64,000 nucleotides of DNA from Phocicoccus schoeneichii. GTDB taxonomy: Bacteria > Bacillota > Bacilli > Staphylococcales > Salinicoccaceae. A model generated the notes under the pieces. The model had not been told where the DNA came from. It did no database searches and was given only the letters and a program-made list of their open reading frames with translations. Made by a program: the position numbers and the translations under genes. Location of the stretch: the NCBI RefSeq assembly GCF_014635565.1, contig NZ_BMDB01000001.1, positions 124,001 to 188,000 on the forward strand, given 5' to 3'. Below, in pieces: positions 1,083-52,861 of this stretch; position 1 is the first letter of the stretch; each line of letters begins with the position of its first letter.

Positions 1083-2198
1083 ATGATTATTGGTATTCCA
1101 AAGGAGTTAAAGAACAACGAGAATCGTGTGGGCTTAACACCATCAGGAGTATATGCATTTGTTGAAGCAGGACACGAAGTACGCGTTGAAAAAGGAGCTG
1201 GCGTTGGGTCATTCTTCACGGACGAAGATTACGAAGAAGTCGGCGCAAAAATTTATGACAACAGAAGTGACGTTTGGGCAGCAGATATGGTTGTGAAAGT
1301 TAAAGAACCTATCGAAGAAGAGTATGAGTTCTTTAGAGAAGGTCTTATTTTATTCACATATCTACATCTCGCACCAGAAGTAAAGCTTACTAAGGCTTTA
1401 AAAGATAAAAAAGTCACTGCCATTGCATACGAAACGATTACTGGTAAGAAAGGGGACTTACCATTGCTTGCTCCAATGAGTGAAGTAGCTGGTCGTATGG
1501 CTACTCAACTTGGATCTGAATACCTACAATCAATTAAGGGCGGACGTGGTATTTTACTCAGCGGTGTTCCAGGTGTTGAGCGTGGTAATATCACAATCAT
1601 AGGTGGTGGTAACGCTGGTACAAACGCAGCTAAGATCGCTATCGGTTTAGGTGCGAAGGTAACAATTATTGACCTTGATGCCAATCGTCTAAGAGAGTTA
1701 GAAGACATTTTTGGTACAAGTGTACAGACATTAATGTCAACACCACTTAACATCAAACAAGCAGTAGAACAGAGTGACCTTGTTATTGGTGCTGTTTTAA
1801 TCCCTGGTGCAAAAGCACCAACGCTTGTGTCTGAAGAAGTCGTTAAAAATATGAAAGCTGGTTCTGTAATCATCGATATCGCGATTGACCAAGGTGGTAT
1901 TTTTGAAACTACTGATAAAATCACGACACATGATGATCCAACATATGTCAGACATGGTGTGATTCACTATGCAGTAGCAAATATGCCGGGTGCCGTGCCT
2001 AGAACATCAACAATTGCACTTACAAACGCAACGTTAATGTACGGTTTACAAATCGCAAATCTTGGTCCAGAAGAAGCAGCAAAAAGAATCCCAGGATTAC
2101 TCCAAGGGTTCAACGTATATGACGGTCACGTCACGTATCAAGCTGTAGCTGAAGCTCAAGATATTGAATACACACCCATCGAGACATTAATTAAATAA
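1083..2198 (+). CDS. ald: Alanine dehydrogenase
   Basis: NAD-dependent L-alanine dehydrogenase (alanine + NAD+ + H2O to pyruvate + NH4+ + NADH), a cytoplasmic enzyme that feeds alanine carbon into pyruvate. At 371 residues it has the usual family length. The pyruvate-binding Arg15, Lys74 and catalytic-site His95 are present, the Rossmann motif GGGNAG is at 174-179, and the acidic residue that selects NAD is in IIDLDA (~197-199). GAGGGG sits 6 bases before the ATG. The 3' end overlaps, tail to tail, the last 8 bases of the minus-strand gene at 2191, so there is no room for a terminator outside coding sequence. Confidence 0.97.
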
Positions 2199-2766
2199 TG
2201 GCAGTAGCATTAAAAGGGATGAGTTTTAGAAGCTCATCTCTTTTTTCAATAGTTGAAACGACTGGGATGATTTCAATACGATTTCTAGCAAAACTTCTGA
2301 GCTTCGCTAGTGGTTGCAGAGCTTTAAAATCATGGAAGTCTAAATCTCTCGTATCATACATTATCCCAGATATATTTTCTTCAATTAATTCTTCCACTGT
2401 TTTGGAATGTAAGAAACTTGGGATTTTTGAGAACGCCGGTCCGATAATCAGATGTTTATCTCCAGCAAGTTTTGAAATCTCTCTTAAATAAATCTTATCG
2501 AGATAAACTGAATCATCCTTTAAAAACTGGTTCGTTAAAAATCCATCTACATCACCGTTTTGTTTTATAATTTCGTAATGAATATTATTCTTCATGAAAG
2601 TATCTGTTTCTTCTGAAGTGTTGATAGATATATACACTTCCGCTTCAGGATATAGTCTACGATACATATCAATCACTGTACGAGAAACACTATCTAAATT
2701 TTGAGCTGCAAATAACGCAACTTCATATGGAGTTGAAATTTGGTTTGTTCTGTAAAATGTTTTCAT
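2191..2766 (-). CDS. Conserved-looking protein of unknown function
   Basis: A 191-residue soluble protein without signal peptide or membrane segment. I chose the ATG at 2766 because GAGGTG lies four bases upstream; a GTG at 2778 would overlap that site. Hydrophobic strands alternate with helices ([26 protein letters not shown]), suggesting an alpha/beta fold, perhaps TIM-barrel-like or Usp-like, but I recognise no catalytic motif and no family. In S. aureus, as I recall, this slot holds an Xaa-Pro dipeptidase gene; this protein is not one. It ends in an 8-base tail-to-tail overlap with ald. Function unknown. Confidence 0.8.
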
Positions 2767-2793
2767 ATGGCACCTCACTCGTTATCATATCAC

Positions 2794-2822
2794 ATTAGAA
2801 TTATAGAGATGACTGTTATAAT
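2794..2822 (+). promoter_or_regulatory. SigA-type promoter for the metal-dependent hydrolase gene
   Basis: An extended -10 element TGTTATAAT (TATAAT at 2817-2822) with a weak -35 (TTAGAA at 2795-2800) lies 45 bases before the gene start and faces it. Confidence 0.55.
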
Positions 2823-2867
2823 ATTTCTCATAAGGGTATATGAATCATGAACAAGGAGGCATCATTT

Positions 2868-3551
2868 ATGAAACTTTCATATCACGGACATTCAGTCGTA
2901 CAATTTGAGAACAACGGTAAAAAAGTAATCATCGATCCGTTTATTAACGGAAATGAATCTACGGATTTAAAAGTAGAGGACATCGAAGTTGATTACATTC
3001 TATTAACTCACGGTCACAATGATCACGTTGGTGACACTGTGGAAATCGCGAAAAATAATAACGCAACTGTGATCGCACCATTTGAACTTGCGAATTTAAT
3101 GGAATCAAAAGGATGTAACGCAATCCCAATGGGTATTGGTGGTAAAAAAGAGTATGATTTCGGCGGTATAAAATTCGTTCATGCATTCCATTCAAGCAGT
3201 TATAACGAAGAGGATGGTTCTGTATCTTACACAGGCATGCCGACAGGTATTATTCTTTTTTTAGAAGATAAAAAAATATACCACGTTGGTGACACAGGAA
3301 TCTTTGGTGACATGAAACTCATTAGTGAAATCAATGGAGAATTTGATGTCGCGTTCGTACCAATTGGAGGTAACTTCACGATGGACGTGTCTGATGCTAT
3401 CATTGCAGTGGATGAACTCATCAAACCTAAAATAGCAGTGCCAGTGCACTTCAACACATTTCCTCCAATTGAGCAAGATCCTGAAGTCTTCAAAAAAGGA
3501 TTAAAAACAGAATGTCAGATCTTAAAACCAGGTGAATGTGTTAAATTTTAA
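2868..3551 (+). CDS. UPF0173 family metal-dependent hydrolase (YtkL-like, metallo-beta-lactamase fold)
   Basis: A 227-residue single-domain metallo-beta-lactamase-fold protein. The metal site LLTHGHNDHVGD gives His48, His50, Asp52 and His53; a second metal-site cluster is in YHVGDTGIFGDM, and PVHFNTFPP supplies the late His. This is the UPF0173 family (B. subtilis YtkL), whose physiological substrate is not established. The ATG at 2868 was preferred because GGAGG lies 8 bases upstream; an in-frame ATG at 2847 precedes the ribosome-binding site. The same gene lies near ald and nrnA in other staphylococci and bacilli. Confidence 0.92.
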   Translation: MKLSYHGHSVVQFENNGKKVIIDPFINGNESTDLKVEDIEVDYILLTHGHNDHVGDTVEIAKNNNATVIAPFELANLMESKGCNAIPMGIGGKKEYDFGGIKFVHAFHSSSYNEEDGSVSYTGMPTGIILFLEDKKIYHVGDTGIFGDMKLISEINGEFDVAFVPIGGNFTMDVSDAIIAVDELIKPKIAVPVHFNTFPPIEQDPEVFKKGLKTECQILKPGECVKF

Positions 3552-3554
3552 ATA

Positions 3555-3596
3555 AAAAATACGCAAGAGTGATTGATTTCACTTTTGCGTATTTTG
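3555..3596. terminator. Bidirectional terminator between the hydrolase gene and ytpI
   Basis: AAAATACGCAA and TTGCGTATTTT arms with inner AGTGA/TCACT pairing form a long hairpin flanked by A-rich and T-rich sequence, serving both convergent genes. Confidence 0.85.
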
Positions 3597-3600
3597 GTAT

Positions 3601-3963
3601 CTAGCGTTGTTTTTTTTCTCGCTGTTTTTTCTTTTCAAACTCTTCCCATGCTTTATCTTCTATAGGAAGATTTCCCTTAAAGTACTTACGTGCCTTGTTA
3701 AAATGCCACGCGTTAAATCCACCGAAAATAATAAAGATACCTCCGATGATATATGCCACAACGGTATGGAATTGGATGATTGAGTTTAACCCAAAAATGA
3801 CCATGAATATTCCAAACCAGAAACGTGACATAGCGTTATAGTACGCTTTTCTTACATCTCTTCTTGTTCTTACTTGAAGCACTTTGTAAACTAAAAATAT
3901 TAAGAATGACAAAATGAGTAATGTGACGATTGAAGAGATTAGGATTTTTAAACCGATATCCAT
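3601..3963 (-). CDS. ytpI: YtpI family membrane protein
   Basis: A 120-residue protein with three predicted membrane segments: residues ~5-27, ~50-67 and ~69-86, the last two close together in IIGGIFIIFGGFNAWHF. The C-terminal tail is highly charged and basic (KKKQREKKQR), presumably cytoplasmic. Its size, the hairpin of the last two helices and its place divergent from nrnA match the YtpI family of Bacillales, whose function is not known. GGAG lies ~10 bases before the ATG and is embedded in an inverted repeat (ACTACAA/TTGTAGT, 3966-3989) that could fold around the ribosome-binding site. Confidence 0.85.
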   Translation of the reverse strand: MDIGLKILISSIVTLLILSFLIFLVYKVLQVRTRRDVRKAYYNAMSRFWFGIFMVIFGLNSIIQFHTVVAYIIGGIFIIFGGFNAWHFNKARKYFKGNLPIEDKAWEEFEKKKQREKKQR

Positions 3964-4036
3964 TTACTACAACTCCATTCCATTGTAGTATAATTGGAAT
4001 TAACGATATATACAATACAGAACGGATGAAAATAAT

Positions 4037-4996
4037 ATGTTCACAAATTTCACACAACATTTAAATGAATTTAATAAATATAAAGAAGACATCTTTAAAG
4101 CGATTGAAGAAAATGATTCTATCGTCATTTTAAGACACATAAGACCGGATCCTGATGCACTTGGCTCTCAGTTTGCGTTAAAAGCATTTTTAAATAATAA
4201 GTTCAAAGAAAAAACTGTAAGAGCGTTAGGTGAGGGGGAATCGAACCTAGACTTTATGGGTCAGTTAGACGAGGGTGACATCAATGAATCAGATCTCGTT
4301 ATTATTTTAGACACAGCGAACGTTGAGCGCATTGATTATAAAGATGAAATTCCTGATTCTTGTAAAGTATTAAAAATTGATCACCATCCAAACAGAGAAC
4401 CATATGGAGACCTCAACCTTGTAGAAATCGGGGTTTCATCGACTTCAGAGTTAGTGTTCTTACTCATGCATGACTATGATGCTGATGCGATTACTGAGAA
4501 CGTGGCAGAGAAAACGTATCTTGGAATCATCGGAGACACGGGTAGATTCTTATATAACTCTTATCCAAGCACATATCAGGTGGCGGCAGAAGTAGTCAAT
4601 TACGGTGTGGATACAAGTGAATTATTGTCGATCATGTATAAGAAAAATCTGGATGACTTTAAATTCACAGGATACCTTATTAACAACTTTTTATTAACAG
4701 ACAAAGGAGTCGCATATATTTATGTGAGTGAAGAAGCACGTCGTGAATACGGTGTGTCAGAGACACAAGCGGCGTTACAAGTGAATCTATTCAGAGATAT
4801 AGAAGATGTAAAAGTGTGGTTCATGGCTTTAGAGTCTGGAGATGAAATCAGAGTCAGACTACGTTCAAAGAAAACAGTAATCAATGACGTGGCTGAATAC
4901 TTCGGTGGAGGCGGTCACCAATTAGCTTCAGGCATACGCTTTAGAAAACGTGAAGATTTACAAAAATTAATCGAAAAAATAGAAGAGAAATTATAA
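4037..4996 (+). CDS. nrnA: Bifunctional oligoribonuclease and pAp phosphatase NrnA
   Basis: A 319-residue DHH/DHHA1 phosphoesterase. The first metal motif RHIRPDPDALGS is at 33-44, the DHH triad at 115-117 (KIDHHPN), and the DHHA1 glycine-rich substrate motif GGGGHQLASG near 296. NrnA degrades short RNA oligonucleotides and dephosphorylates pAp in Bacillales, replacing the missing Orn. The ribosome-binding site is weak (GGATGA with an AT-rich spacer). A -10-like TATAAT at 3989-3994 lies in the divergent region shared with ytpI. dnaE follows after 21 bases, so the two are probably cotranscribed, as in relatives. Confidence 0.95.
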   Translation: MFTNFTQHLNEFNKYKEDIFKAIEENDSIVILRHIRPDPDALGSQFALKAFLNNKFKEKTVRALGEGESNLDFMGQLDEGDINESDLVIILDTANVERIDYKDEIPDSCKVLKIDHHPNREPYGDLNLVEIGVSSTSELVFLLMHDYDADAITENVAEKTYLGIIGDTGRFLYNSYPSTYQVAAEVVNYGVDTSELLSIMYKKNLDDFKFTGYLINNFLLTDKGVAYIYVSEEARREYGVSETQAALQVNLFRDIEDVKVWFMALESGDEIRVRLRSKKTVINDVAEYFGGGGHQLASGIRFRKREDLQKLIEKIEEKL

Positions 4997-5017
4997 TAGA
5001 AATAGAGGAGTGAACGT

Positions 5018-8000
5018 ATGATCAATTTAAATGTGCATAGTAGCTATGAATTTTTAAATAGCAATATTAAAATTGATCAGCTCTTAGAGAAAATAGTTGC
5101 AGATGGTCAAAGAAGTGTGGCGATCACTGATTTTAACTACATGCATAATACGTATGAGTTTATTCAGTCTGCACAAAATAAAAATGTCAAACCTATCGTT
5201 GGTTTGGCATTTTCTTTAGATGACGGCATGGAAGGTGTGCCATTTGTTTTATATGCTAAAAATAACTCAGGCTACCGTTTCTTAGCACGACTCTCTTCAA
5301 GATTGAGTTACAGCAATTTAACACATACACCAATATCATATCTAAAAGATATTACGGATTGCATTGTTGTTGCGAAAACAGATAAGGGAATTGAGTATCT
5401 AAAGGAGTTCAATATCGATGAAGATGATACATACGTTTCTCAAAAAATAAAAAATATAAATGGTTATAAACAAGCATATATTGAAGATGTGTTTTATCTT
5501 GAACCTGAAGATAAGCATGTCGTAGACGTGCTGCGTGCAATAAAGATGAATACAAAAATCGATATCGCACATTTAAATAGAGAAACAGGTCATGCGTTTG
5601 TTAAAACGTTTGAGGATGTAAATGTGAGTGAAGATATTTTACAAATGAATCAGGAGATTGTTGATAAGTGTAATATTGAACTTCCGCATGTAGAATTTAC
5701 ATTGCCTGTTTTTGATGAAACGAAGGATTCTAAACAGTATCTTTTACAAGAATTAGAAGAAGCGTTTAGTAAAAAAGTAAATCATAATCACGAGGCATAT
5801 CGTGAACGCATGATGTATGAGTACAAGACGATTATCGAAATGCATTATGAAGATTATTTTTTAATCGTCAGTGATTTAATTCGTTACGCAAAAAGTACGG
5901 ACATTTATGTGGGCCCAGGACGTGGATCGTCGAGTGCGAGTTTGGTGTCTTATTTATTAGATATTACTGACCTCGATCCATTAAAGTATGACTTGTTATT
6001 TGAACGTTTCTTAAACCCGGAACGTGTGTCCATGCCTGATATTGACATCGACTTTGCATCGGTAGATGTGCCTAAAGTAATTGATTATCTAAAGAATAAG
6101 TATGGAGATATGAATGTTGCGCACATTTTGACGTACAGTAATCTAACTGCAAAGAGCGCAGCTCGTGAAGTTGGACGAATATTTAGTTTCACAGATAGTG
6201 AAATGCGAGAAATTTCAAATATTATTGATGAGAATAATAACGACCTACTAGAAGCAATCGATTCAGAGCGCTTTAAAAACCTTGTAGATTTAGAAGATAA
6301 ATACAAAATCATCAGAGAAATTGCACCAAAATTATTAGGATTACCAAGAAATACATCCCAACACGCATCAGGCGTTCTCTTAGGTCGTTCACCACTTGTG
6401 GAGAATATTCCAACGATGTTTGATGGTGAGACAATGAAAAGCCAGTGGCCAATGAATGATGTAGAAGCTGCAGGACTTTTGAAAATTGACGTTCTAAGTT
6501 TAAATACATTGACGCTTGTACGCTACATCAATCAGCTTGTAAAGAGAAAGCATCCTAATTTTGATATCAACGCTGTTCCTTTTAATGATGAAAAAACATT
6601 CAAAATTCTGAGTGCAGGACTAACAAGTGGTATATTTCAGCTTGAATCAGACGGTATTACAAATGTTCTTAAGCGTTACAAACCAGAAAGTTTAATGGAT
6701 CTCGCACTTGTTCTTGCACTTTATAGACCTGGTCCGATGGGAGAAATTGATTCAGTTGTTAAGAAAAAACATGGCAAGGAAACTGTGGAGTATCCATTAG
6801 AAGCGCTAAAAACTATTTTAAAAGATACATATGGTGTCATGATATTCCAAGAACAAATTATGCAAGTTGCGCGTAAAGTTGCAGGGTACTCACTTGCTGA
6901 AGCGGATTTAATGAGACGTGCAATGGCTAAAAAGAACCGTGAGACGATGATGAAAGAAGAAGCAAAGTTTGTCACTGGTGGTATTAAAAATGGCTTTGAC
7001 AGAGATACTGTGTCGTCACTCTTTGATTTAATTTTAAAATTCGCAGATTATGGTTTCCCTAAATCCCATGCACTCGTATATGCGATGACATCATACCGCA
7101 TGGCTTATCTAAAAGCGCATTACAGCGAAGCATTCTATGCCGTGATGCTCATGGAACATAAGACTGAAGAAGATAAAAGAACAAAGACACTGAGTGAAAT
7201 GAAGCAACTTGGAATTAAACTGAAACGCCCGAGTATCAACAGTTCGAGATTTAGAAATACCATTAATGACGGCGTTCAACTTGGTTTTGGCATGATTAAG
7301 AGTATGTCAAAAAGACTTGGAGATGCGTTTGTACTGAATAGAAGTAACGAACCATATACGGATCTTTATGATTTTGTTACGAAAAATACTGAATTAAAGC
7401 CGAGTGAAACACAACTGCAAATGCTGATTTTATCTGGAGCAATGGATGATTTTAAAGAAAATAGAAAGACGATGTTACAAACTGTGCCTCGTGCATTAGA
7501 AGTAATTAAAGACGGTTTAGACTATGGTGGATTCTTAGAAACGTTAGGTTTTGGAGTCAAAAAAGAGTTCCATCATGTAGAAGAAATGTCTCAGATGGAA
7601 ATGATAGAAGGGGAGAACACATCATTAAACTTCTTTATTTCCACTCATCCTGTCTTGCTAATGGAAAGAGATTATGAATATATTCCGTTTGAATTACTCA
7701 GTAAGAAAAATAAAGGGCAGACGGGAACTTTCCTCTTATACAATGTGGACGTTAGAAAAATTACAACAAAAAATAAAGATGAAATGGCATATGTCGAAGT
7801 GACAGATGGTAGAGAGAATATTGATGCTGTACTGTTTCCAAAAAACTATTATGTGAATTTAGCGAAACTTCAACATAAATTTATTGTTGTAAATGGAAAG
7901 ATGGATGAATTCCGAGGATCAAAACAACTTGTCATTAATAAAATGTTTAACATTGAGGAATATGTACGAAACTATTTAGAGCGTTCAAGATATGCGTATA

Positions 8001-49768: not shown

Positions 49769-49842
49769 GTCTCAGTAGCTCAGCAGGATAGAGCAATGGC
49801 CTTCTAAGCCATCGGTCAGGGGTTCGAATCCCTTCTGGGACG
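49769..49842 (+). tRNA. tRNA-Arg (anticodon TCT)
   Basis: A complete 74-base cloverleaf: acceptor GTCTCAG/CTGGGAC, D-arm GCTC/GAGC, anticodon arm ATGGC/GCCAT with loop CTTCTAA (anticodon TCT at 49803-49805, reading AGA/AGG), T-arm AGGGG/CCCTT with TTCGAAT. The CCA end is not encoded (the genome has GCTA). Own promoter and terminator. Confidence 0.97.
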
Positions 49843-49857
49843 CTAATTAATAAGAGA

Positions 49858-49890
49858 AACACCACAGCCAAGCGGTTGTGGTGTTTTTTT
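49858..49890 (+). terminator. tRNA-Arg terminator
   Basis: AACACCACA and TGTGGTGTT arms with extra CC/GG pairing in the loop, then seven T. Confidence 0.9.
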
Positions 49891-49910
49891 GTGGTTGAAA
49901 TTCAATGGAA

Positions 49911-50019
49911 AATTTGTACGACAAATTCAGCTTAAAAAAGTGTTTTTATCGATAGTTTGGCGCTCAAACTGAATTTAAGCGTCAAAGTCTGACGAAATCA
50001 CAAAAGTTTGTCGCTCAAA
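49911..50019. repeat. Short intergenic direct and inverted repeats
   Basis: The non-coding gap 49891-50127 contains an inverted repeat AATTTGT-ACG-ACAAATT (49911-49927) and two direct copies of GTTTGkCGCTCAAA (49955-49968 and 50006-50019; 13 of 14 identical, 51 bases apart), with a related AAGCGTCAAA (49978-49987) between them. No ORF, promoter or RNA gene was recognised. It may be a remnant of a dispersed repeat family; the rest, 50020-50127, is featureless AT-rich DNA. Confidence 0.6.
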
Positions 50020-50127
50020 ATGTTAAACACAAGATTATGATTTGACTATATGAGTATTCATTTCTGACGTTGTTTTCAAACATTTCTACTTTATTTTGGC
50101 TAGTAAATTCTACTCAACACTATAAAC

Positions 50128-50156
50128 AATAAAACAGACACCTTACGGTGTCTGTT
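50128..50156 (-). terminator. Terminator of merA
   Basis: On the minus strand, ACAGACACC and GGTGTCTGT arms with a 4-base loop, then TTTTATT. Confidence 0.85.
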
Positions 50157-50162
50157 CTTCAG

Positions 50163-51491
50163 TCATTCCTTCACATTAAACAGGTCATTTAATGATTCTG
50201 TCATCGTAGGGTGTGTATATATGTTGTCTCTCAACACTTCATATGAAATTTTTTGATCGATTGCTAGTTTCACTATGTTGATCATTTCTTCGGATTCTTT
50301 TCCGTAGAGTGTTGCTCCGAGTACTTCGTTTGTTTCTGCATCGACTACTGCTTTGAATAATCCTCTTGGATCGTTATTGATTTTGTGTCTAGGGATACTA
50401 TTTACTGGTAGTTTTCCTTCTTTAATTTCTTTACTAGCTTCTTTTGCTTCTTTCGCTGTCATCCCAACGCGTGATAGTGGTGGGTCTATGAATACTGTAT
50501 ATGGTACTGCTCCACGGTTTTCTGTTGTACGTTCTTTATCACCATATAAATCATCTTTCACAATTCTAAAGTCATCGAGTGAGATGTACGTGAACTGCAT
50601 GCCACCTTTTACGTCACCAACGGCATAGATTCCTTCTCTAGTTGTTCTAAGGTGTTCATCTACTTTAATTTCTTTACGGTCAGTGAGTTCGATGTCCGTG
50701 TTTTCTAATCCTAAATCCACATTTGGTTTACGTCCTATCGCAAGTAACACTGCGTCTGCTTCGAATGTTCCTTTATTTGTATGAACAATCGTGTGATCTT
50801 CTGTATCCTCAAATTTTTCTGATTCTGCTTCTGTTACAAAGTTAATGCCTGCTTCAGTTAAATCGTTAATTGCAGCATTTCTAATTTCTTCATCTTCTTT
50901 AGGCATGAGTATATCACTACGTTCTAACACAGTCACGTCTGTTCCTAAATTATTAAACATGCTTGCGAATTCTAAAGCAATATATCCGCCACCAATGATA
51001 ACTAGTCGTTTTGGTTGCTCTGATAAATTCATGATACCCGTTGAGTCATAGAGTCTTTTTGAAGTTTTCACACCTTCAATGTCGGGGATAACTGGAGAGG
51101 CACCTGTGTTAATTACAATGTTTTTTGATGTGTAAGTGTCTAACAATTTGTCATTGTCATCAAATACTTCTACTTCATAATTTGATTTAAATTTTGCTTT
51201 TCCATCAACGACTTCAATGTTTTCATCTGTCGCAAGAGTGTTATAGTTCTTTTTGTTTAACGCACCGACAACTTCTGATTTTCTTTCAAAAGCATCAACA
51301 AATGATTTGTTTAACTCACCATCATGTACTAATACTTTAGAAGGTATGCAGCCAATATTGATACATGTCCCACCATACATCTTGTTGGACTGTTCAATTA
51401 CGGCAACTTTTTTTCCTTGTCTTGCGGCTGTCTTCGCAAGTGTTTTACCTGCTTTACCGAATCCGATAATTACTAAGTCAAATTGTTTCAA
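50163..51491 (-). CDS. merA: Hypothiocyanous acid reductase MerA (RclA-type flavoprotein disulfide reductase)
   Basis: 442-residue FAD-dependent pyridine nucleotide-disulfide oxidoreductase. FAD site LVIIGFGKAGKTLA, redox-active disulfide CINIGC (Cys43 and Cys48), NAD(P)H site VIIGGGYIALEFASMF, second FAD motif AVGDVKGG, and dimerisation domain ending YTHPTMTESLNDLF. It lacks the N-terminal HMA domain and C-terminal Cys pair of mercuric reductases and matches the staphylococcal MerA/RclA group that reduces hypothiocyanous acid and protects against HOCl. The start is TTG at 51491 with AGGAGG 8 bases upstream. The hypR regulator that adjoins merA in S. aureus is not next to it here. Confidence 0.9.
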   Translation of the reverse strand: MKQFDLVIIGFGKAGKTLAKTAARQGKKVAVIEQSNKMYGGTCINIGCIPSKVLVHDGELNKSFVDAFERKSEVVGALNKKNYNTLATDENIEVVDGKAKFKSNYEVEVFDDNDKLLDTYTSKNIVINTGASPVIPDIEGVKTSKRLYDSTGIMNLSEQPKRLVIIGGGYIALEFASMFNNLGTDVTVLERSDILMPKEDEEIRNAAINDLTEAGINFVTEAESEKFEDTEDHTIVHTNKGTFEADAVLLAIGRKPNVDLGLENTDIELTDRKEIKVDEHLRTTREGIYAVGDVKGGMQFTYISLDDFRIVKDDLYGDKERTTENRGAVPYTVFIDPPLSRVGMTAKEAKEASKEIKEGKLPVNSIPRHKINNDPRGLFKAVVDAETNEVLGATLYGKESEEMINIVKLAIDQKISYEVLRDNIYTHPTMTESLNDLFNVKE

Positions 51492-51628
51492 GTTCTTTTC
51501 CTCCTAAATATTTATCTCATATTTACATTAAGACGAAATAAAATTAAATTCAAGAAATGCGTTTTGAGTACATTCGATAAAATTCGGGTAAAAGATATTA
51601 AACAGTTAAAAAGAAAGTAGTGATAACC

Positions 51629-51880
51629 ATGAGAGTTTATAAGGTTGAAAAGAAAATTACAAAGTATCTTTTAAAAGATATTGAATCAAAAGATATTGCA
51701 GATGCAGCAGGTGTGAGTGTATCAACAGTTGAACGTTTACGTGAAGAAGATACATCTCTAGATAACGCACAGTTCTCAACTGTTAAAAAATTGTACATTG
51801 CTGCAATGGCAGAAGAGAAGAAAAATAAAAAAGCCAAGAAAAAGAAGAAGAAAAAAGATAAAAAGAAAAAGTCTAAATAA
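51629..51880 (+). CDS. Small HTH protein with polylysine tail
   Basis: 83 residues from ATG at 51629 (a GTG at 51620 is possible; neither has a good ribosome-binding site). The first ~60 residues form a helical domain with a helix-turn-helix-like stretch KDIADAAGVSVSTVERLREE, as in small XRE/sigma-like DNA-binding folds. Residues 64-83 are 16 lysines out of 20, followed at once by the stop. The tail would bind nucleic acid nonspecifically. It lies between merA (divergent) and an ABC exporter whose promoter has palindromes, so a regulatory role is possible but unproven. Confidence 0.7.
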   Translation: MRVYKVEKKITKYLLKDIESKDIADAAGVSVSTVERLREEDTSLDNAQFSTVKKLYIAAMAEEKKNKKAKKKKKKKDKKKKSK

Positions 51881-51888
51881 TAACGAAT

Positions 51889-51922
51889 AACCTGAAGTAA
51901 TATATATAACTTCAGGTTTTTC
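51889..51922 (+). terminator. Terminator after the HTH-polylysine gene
   Basis: AACCTGAAGT and ACTTCAGGTT arms with a 10-base loop, then TTTTCTTTT. Confidence 0.85.
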
Positions 51923-51933
51923 TTTTAAACAGG

Positions 51934-51971
51934 TTGACATATACGTATCATAACTATATTATCTTAGATAG
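51934..51971 (+). promoter_or_regulatory. Promoter of the ABC exporter with two palindromes
   Basis: TTGACA (51934-51939), 17 bases, TATTAT (51957-51962). ATACGTAT (51941-51948) lies in the spacer and TATCT-T-AGATA (51960-51970) overlaps the -10 and start region. Both are operator-like; no binder is identified. Confidence 0.65.
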
Positions 51972-51994: not shown

Positions 51995-52861
51995 ATGGAA
52001 CTATTAAACGTATCGAAAAAATACGGTGGCAACTATGTATTAGAAAATGCGACGTTTGATCTTAATCCAGGTGTAACTGGATTAATTGGAAGAAACGGTG
52101 CAGGTAAAACAACTGTAATGAAAATTATTTGTGAAATTATACAAAAGCATGAAGGGCGAGTAAATCGTGGTGAAAACTTTACAGTAGGTTACTTAATCGA
52201 AGAGCCAAAGTTATACCGTCATAAATCTGGTTGGTATAATATCAAGTACTTCTCTAGTGTCTATAAATCAGCTGCTGATAAAGCATATATTGATTATCTT
52301 GTAGATGCTTTAGACATGCGTGGATACTTAAAACGTAAAGTTGGAAAGTATTCAATGGGGATGAGGCAAAAACTTGGTCTTGTGATTGCGATGTTAAATA
52401 AACCCAAATACTTAATTTTAGATGAACCTACTAACGGTATGGACCCAGATGGTTCGATCGATGTATTAAAAATCATTCAAGAGTTCTCAAGAAAATTCGA
52501 CATTTCAGTTCTTATCTCAAGTCATAAATTAGAAGATATTGAAATGATCGCGGATGACATTCTTTTCATTGAAAAGGGACGTTTATCTGAAAAAGTACTC
52601 ATCAATGAATTAAAATCTGGTACTTATATTGAGTTTATTTTTGATGAAGATGAAGCAAGACAAGCGTTTGAAATTTTAAGTGAAAGCGTACAGGATCTGG
52701 AGTTAAAGGGTAATGTGGTACGCATGTCTTATAATGGTGACTTCTCAATGTATTTAGAACGCATTGCTAAATCTGGATTATTCCCAGTAGATATGAACAA
52801 GAAGACAACATCACTGAAAGATTATTACTTCAAAATGATTGACCAAGGAGAGGTGAAATAG
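51995..52861 (+). CDS. ABC transporter ATP-binding protein
   Basis: 288-residue ATPase of an ABC-2 type exporter. Walker A IGRNGAGKTT (~31-40), signature YSMGMRQKLG, Walker B YLILDEPTNGMDPDG, switch His in LISSHKLEDIEMIAD. A C-terminal regulatory extension (~205-288) is typical of bacitracin or lantibiotic-immunity-like ABC proteins (BcrA/LanF group). Cargo is unknown. GAGGGG precedes the ATG, and the permease gene starts at the base after its stop. Confidence 0.92.
   Translation: MELLNVSKKYGGNYVLENATFDLNPGVTGLIGRNGAGKTTVMKIICEIIQKHEGRVNRGENFTVGYLIEEPKLYRHKSGWYNIKYFSSVYKSAADKAYIDYLVDALDMRGYLKRKVGKYSMGMRQKLGLVIAMLNKPKYLILDEPTNGMDPDGSIDVLKIIQEFSRKFDISVLISSHKLEDIEMIADDILFIEKGRLSEKVLINELKSGTYIEFIFDEDEARQAFEILSESVQDLELKGNVVRMSYNGDFSMYLERIAKSGLFPVDMNKKTTSLKDYYFKMIDQGEVK

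Follow-up and report, generated by a model that had tools for sequence, protein, structure and literature searches.

The window analysed here is a 64,000-nucleotide stretch of the Phocicoccus schoeneichii genome. Between a gene for hypothiocyanous acid reductase and one for an ABC transporter ATPase, it carries a short frame for a helix-turn-helix (HTH) protein that ends in a run of lysines. The features of the locus are as follows.

49769..49843, forward strand: tRNA-Arg (TCT), called by ARAGORN
50163..51491, reverse strand: gene for hypothiocyanous acid reductase MerA, transcribed away from the HTH gene (NF041853 at 781.9 bits, cut-off 650)
51492..51628, no strand: intergenic region of 137 bases common to merA and the HTH gene, with no inverted repeat beyond chance
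51629..51808, forward strand: mini-HTH core, residues 1-60, of the phrog_1529 / AcrIIA15-NTD / Aca11 kind by profile and fold matches
51713..51775, forward strand: codons 29-49, recognition helix and next loop, with the acidic cluster E35, E39, E40 and D41 found by charge comparison with the family
51818..51877, forward strand: lysine tail, residues 64-83, 16 of 20 lysine
51889..51918, forward strand: terminator-like hairpin followed by a U-rich run (-15.4 kcal/mol, z -4.7)
51995..52861, forward strand: PmtC-like ABC transporter ATPase, below the NCBIfam cut-off, conserved right flank (87% identical in the sister species)

The open reading frame at 51629-51880 (forward strand) translates into 83 residues and a stop. 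Its last 20 residues (64-83, KKNKKAKKKKKKKDKKKKSK) include 16 lysines, in agreement with the length and composition given in the original prediction. A GTG codon at 51620, 9 bases upstream, is a possible alternative start that would yield 86 residues. The isoelectric point is 9.97 for the whole protein, 7.96 for residues 1-60 and 10.48 for residues 61-83. Among 782 frames that begin with ATG and span 60 residues or more, taken from all six frames of 464,000 of the genome's 1,777,222 bases with no gene calls, this frame has 16 lysines in its last 20 residues and the runner-up 7, a measure whose threshold was picked after the sequence had been seen. The last 21 codons comprise nine AAA and seven AAG, interspersed with codons for N, A, D and S, and the longest run of A in the tail is 6. 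This mixture of codons and the shortness of the A runs show that the tail is more than a plain poly-A tract. The tail contains no X XXY YYZ heptamer in frame. Ribosomal frameshifting was considered and rejected: a -1 shift, tried at two points, runs into a stop after 3-4 residues each time; shifting by +1 yields 12-24 residues.

In folding analysis, the stem-loop directly 3' of the stop codon was equalled by none of 200 shuffles; the hairpin at 51889-51918 is absent from the list returned by a consensus terminator scan. Ahead of the HTH gene, a single promoter-like match was found on its strand, a weak one (9/12). A search of the short region 51492-51628 for an inverted repeat or operator gave a best palindrome that was matched by 17 of 40 shuffles. 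Downstream, the ABC pair resembles PmtC/PmtD, with both proteins under the NCBIfam cut-offs. The gene's neighbours are thus merA and the PmtC-like ATPase, with no known anti-CRISPR candidate adjacent.

A coupling of the HTH gene with merA was rejected, since no mini-HTH family member was found at 18 other merA loci with flanks of up to 1.5 kb. The MerA protein itself shares 77% identity with the MerA of G012, a genome from another genus of the same bacterial family, and at most 59% with those of other relatives. Apart from P. schoeneichii, only two genomes of that bacterial family have a mini-HTH, and G012 is among them. The likeness of the two MerA proteins could reflect transfer or close kinship.

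The original prediction recognised no named family for the protein. A PHROGs search changes this: the protein alone matches phrog_1529 at E 1.9e-9, and the same profile matches the N-terminal domain (NTD) of AcrIIA15, a staphylococcal anti-CRISPR, at 4.5e-21 and three further homologues at 1.5e-24, 7.2e-18 and 5.8e-17. A profile built from 14 members retrieved the AcrIIA15 NTD (8jfr) at 1.8e-20 and Aca11 (9lx2) at 1.1e-13, while a single-sequence comparison with AcrIIA15 gave only E 0.12. HTH matches in Pfam and NCBIfam were all sub-threshold, with nothing close to any NCBIfam cut-off. Assignment to the LacI family was rejected, PF00356 scoring 21.0 and 23.6 bits against a gathering score of 27. 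Defence families were likewise set aside, as only weak matches were obtained (PADLOC mad1, E 0.0054 with the full protein and 0.0033 with the core; AbiEi, 0.027; RmrA, 0.0094).

The predicted structure is in line with the profile matches. An AlphaFold2 model (mean pLDDT 80.1) contains four helices at residues 3-14, 20-27, 31-39 and 49-81, with the HTH formed by helices 2 and 3 (residues 20-39). The pLDDT is 76-92 by block over residues 1-60 and 54-59, a low-confidence range, in the tail. The top Foldseek match is 8jfr (probability 1.00, TM 0.86 on the target, E 2.7e-3), and Aca11 was found at E 2.4e-2. VIA-align superimposed the model on 8jfr with Z 10.3 and an rmsd of 1.3 over 61 residues, and on Aca11 with Z 9.8. 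Because the family alignment went into the modelling, this fold match is not independent of the sequence evidence. With that dependence, the HTH core of the original prediction is borne out: the model folds as a four-helix HTH, and its best solved matches are the DNA-bound AcrIIA15 NTD and Aca11. By sequence matches and modelled fold, the 83-residue protein belongs to the phrog_1529 mini-HTH family. This family is carried by phages and plasmids and includes the AcrIIA15 NTD and, by profile and fold, Aca11. Phage anti-CRISPR genes are regulated by domains of this type.

The core is widespread. It was found in 95 of 157 genomes of the order (E up to 1e-6), often in several copies. Within the bacterial family, however, it was found in just 3 of 33 genomes, and the single other species of the genus gave no match. 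Members occur on viral contigs (3 loci in one search and 12 in another, with at least one contig common to both), and phage phiMR11 has a weak match, orf66, whose gene follows that of the endolysin. Many members are stand-alone proteins of some 60-70 residues, and others carry a C-terminal domain (for example L064, 172 aa; L088, 153 aa; L091 and L092, 188 aa). The lysine tail, however, is present in 1 of 61 distinct family frames, namely the protein described here, the next best having 6 lysines in its last 25 residues; these frames come from members whose loci were available rather than from all matches of the 157-genome search.

No direct orthologue was found in the genome contigs or the viral contigs, and a scan of the viral contigs with two single homologues gave no match. 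At a coverage of at least 80%, the phage and plasmid records contained no orthologue, only weak matches in 48 phage and 30 plasmid records (best E 0.3 among the phage matches listed and 5e-3 in plasmids), in searches where the BLAST low-complexity filter may mask lysine tails. Across 398 genomes of the class, 28, including the P. schoeneichii genome, had a match at E up to 0.001, with no orthologue elsewhere; many of the other matches were 330-370 aa long, as LacI-type regulators are. A search of open-licence papers found no bacterial HTH protein with a polylysine tail. The original prediction suggested looking for homologues with a conserved core and a variable tail. The core is common, but the tail was seen in this protein and, as a scrap, in the sister species, and nowhere else.

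That scrap was located by blastn synteny with the sister species (genome G001). The two genomes are 80% identical up to window position 49849, about 6 bases past the 3' end of the tRNA-Arg gene, and similarity resumes at 51950 at 78%; the same tRNA-Arg lies at positions 344-418 of the sister locus (L033). The variable segment in between (49843-51950, from tRNA-Arg to the PmtC-like gene) holds merA and the HTH gene in the window and a uridine-kinase-like gene in the sister species. There merA is absent (no match at E 1e-100), as is the HTH gene. No integrase-like gene is present among the listed frames of the variable segment in either the window or the sister species.

In frame after the stop of the kinase gene, and upstream of the promoter of the ABC gene, the sister species carries ATA AAA AAG AAA AAG AAA TCT AAG TAA TAA, which reads IKKKKKSK followed by two stops. 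The HTH gene in the window ends GAT AAA AAG AAA AAG TCT AAA TAA TAA. The scrap thus differs by one extra AAA codon and an AAA/AAG change, with lysine kept. A pattern search found this lysine-tail end once in each of the two genomes of the genus. Among 58,142 stops (464 kb of the P. schoeneichii genome and 16 kb of the sister genome), the scrap is the only case with at least 6 lysines in the 7 codons before the stop, a threshold chosen with the sequence in view and one that the tail end in the window (5 of 7) does not reach. The presence of a lysine scrap at the syntenic place indicates that a lysine tail there predates the species split. The simplest reading of these sequences is an ancestral gene ending in a lysine tail that was replaced in the sister species by kinase cargo. 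We infer that this gene had the same HTH core, of which only the tail end remains in the sister species.

These data also bear on the suggestion, made in the original prediction, that slippage could change the length of the tail. The ribosomal version is not supported, given the lack of an in-frame slippery heptamer and A runs of 6 at most, but a change in length, by one lysine codon between two species, did occur. On sequence grounds, this difference points to replication slippage or codon-wise indels, not to ribosomal slippage.

To examine the DNA-contact face, residues were mapped by alignment onto AcrIIA15, the number in the lysine-tailed protein being the AcrIIA15 number plus 5. In the structural study of AcrIIA15 (PMC10901769), S25, Q26 and K31 contact bases, S14, S15, N16, S30, N34, K37, T43 and S46 contact phosphates, and either K31A or K37A abolishes DNA binding. 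At the base contacts, S25 corresponds to S30 and K31 to R36, so the chemical type of both is preserved. The AcrIIA15 residues Q26, K37, S14, S30, N34 and T43 are changed, with S14, S30 and N34 becoming E19, E35 and E39 and K37 becoming T42; contact positions also vary widely across the family. All four of positions 35, 39, 40 and 41, which were selected after the sequence had been seen, are acidic, compared with none in 49, one in 25 and two in 2 of the 76 other distinct members. The net charge of residues 30-48 is -3, against -2 to +6 in the other 76. The core is therefore the most acidic among these 77 members at the site where AcrIIA15 touches DNA, in a set limited to available loci, from which rows shorter than 50 residues and members identical to the lysine-tailed protein over residues 21-50 were removed. 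Taken together, the acidic positions E19, E35 and E39 and the net charge of -3 make an AcrIIA15-type DNA face that is unusually acidic in the same protein that carries a polycationic tail. This suggests that the tail took over part of the DNA binding.

Several known proteins resemble this arrangement in part. The AcrIIA15 NTD (PDB 8jfr, 8jfu, 8jfo) is likewise a four-helix mini-HTH of about 56 residues, and phrog_1529 is the best match for both; the lysine-tailed protein differs in having 23 tail residues after the core instead of a Cas9-inhibiting domain, and in having T or E at the equivalents of K37, S14, S30 and N34. Aca11 (PDB 9lx2) is described in PMC8934645 as a stand-alone anti-CRISPR-associated regulator of Streptococcus mobile elements. 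It is a stand-alone mini-HTH of similar size and fold, and its 71-residue chain leaves no room for a 23-residue tail. Aca autoregulators lie beside an anti-CRISPR gene and have inverted repeats in their own promoters; the short upstream region here has none of these repeats beyond chance. With neither such a repeat nor an inhibiting domain in the sequence, membership in the Aca proteins or AcrIIA15 is not supported.

A second resemblance lies outside this fold. In HU proteins of the HupS/HupB type, the lysine-rich region is C-terminal. Such bacterial HU-type proteins, for example Streptomyces HupS and mycobacterial HupB, bear lysine-rich regions, and acetylation of HupS lowers its DNA affinity about twofold, according to PMC11229371. 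The likeness is one of working principle only, a cationic extension on a DNA-binding core; their fold is that of HU, in contrast to the four-helix HTH modelled here. By analogy, the lysine-tailed protein may work like lysine-tailed HU proteins without being one.

The reading we prefer, tentatively and at slightly less than an even chance, is that of a phage-type regulator whose specific contacts have been weakened and whose lysine tail supplies general nucleic-acid affinity. It would have originated as a phage- or plasmid-borne mini-HTH regulator of the AcrIIA15-NTD / Aca11 kind, which would have gained a polycationic C-terminal tail while several AcrIIA15-type DNA-contact positions turned acidic. 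Most likely, sequence-specific binding by the HTH would now be slight or changed, and the tail would hold the protein to DNA (or RNA) by general electrostatic attraction. The protein could then serve locally as a DNA-binding or nucleoid-type factor of low specificity. Nonspecific nucleic-acid affinity is a plausible predicted property of such a tail, and the protein is probably dimeric; in its family, dimers would form through the loop that follows helix 3. We infer expression, binding and the role of the tail. Several points count against this reading: specific binding may persist, because S30 and R36 are retained in kind; contact positions differ widely between family members in any case; no core-bearing orthologue was found outside the P. 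schoeneichii genome; and the fold match depends on the family alignment, with low confidence in the tail. A bolder form, which we consider unlikely, is a charge-inverted HTH, in which a phage-type repressor domain has an acidic DNA face and the polylysine tail binds instead; this would be a minimal nucleoid-type protein of a new sort, or one that gates itself by neutralisation between tail and face.

The retained S30 and R36 would suit an ordinary sequence-specific regulator, either an autorepressor or a regulator of the divergent merA, with a merely accessory tail. The 137-base region shared with merA fits such a role, and the HTH domains of AcrIIA15 and AcrIF24 repress their own promoters, as stated in PMC10901769. 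However, the upstream inverted repeat is no better than chance, no family member was found in the flanks (up to 1.5 kb) of the 18 other merA loci, and the phosphate-contact positions are acidic; this reading is unlikely on balance. The opposite exceptional charges within one protein, 16 lysines in the tail and net -3 over residues 30-48, could also mean that the tail folds onto the acidic HTH face, within a monomer or across a dimer, until a polyanion or partner displaces it and switches binding on. In the model the last helix (49-81) extends away, at low confidence, and we hold this arrangement to be improbable.

A decaying mobile-element remnant with no present function, whose lysines arose by chance read-through into A-rich sequence or by repeat expansion, would account for the loss of the gene from the sister species, for a variable segment that starts at a tRNA gene and for the extra AAA codon, which is consistent with repeat drift. 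Set against it are an intact frame with its own terminator-like hairpin, a tail of mixed AAA and AAG interrupted by N, A, D and S that is no simple repeat, and a sister scrap that keeps lysine despite a codon-wise indel and an AAA/AAG change, which makes a lysine tail at this place older than the split. Decay is rather unlikely. A fusion of the AcrIIA13-15 anti-CRISPR type, in which the tail stands in for the Cas9-binding domain, has in its favour that the N-terminal domain is of the AcrIIA15 kind, yet the inhibiting domain of AcrIIA15 (residues 57-170; PMC10901769) is missing and no Cas9 (TIGR01865) was found in the 92%-complete P. schoeneichii genome, which makes it highly improbable.

If the preferred reading of weakened specific contacts is correct, a mobile-element repressor domain would have become a low-specificity DNA binder through a lysine tail and an altered contact face, a simple, testable route for a possible origin of nucleoid-type proteins. 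The unannotated microprotein is now tied to a structurally solved regulator family, so its binding is directly testable.

Two other settings of the mini-HTH family were observed elsewhere. In a Staphylococcus genome (L195, G135:C29), five family genes lie on one strand within 4.7 kb (2150-6788), at 2150-2413, 3750-3959, 5184-5384, 5680-5904 and 6591-6788, mostly with long gaps and near a contig end. Judged by coordinates, similar clusters occur in G087, G089 and G141, and such clusters may be accessory or anti-defence islands. On the S. aureus plasmid NZ_CP029628.1 (L039), two divergent genes each encode an N-terminal mini-HTH followed by a long C-terminal region of unknown function, a layout that resembles the AcrIIA13-15 fusions.
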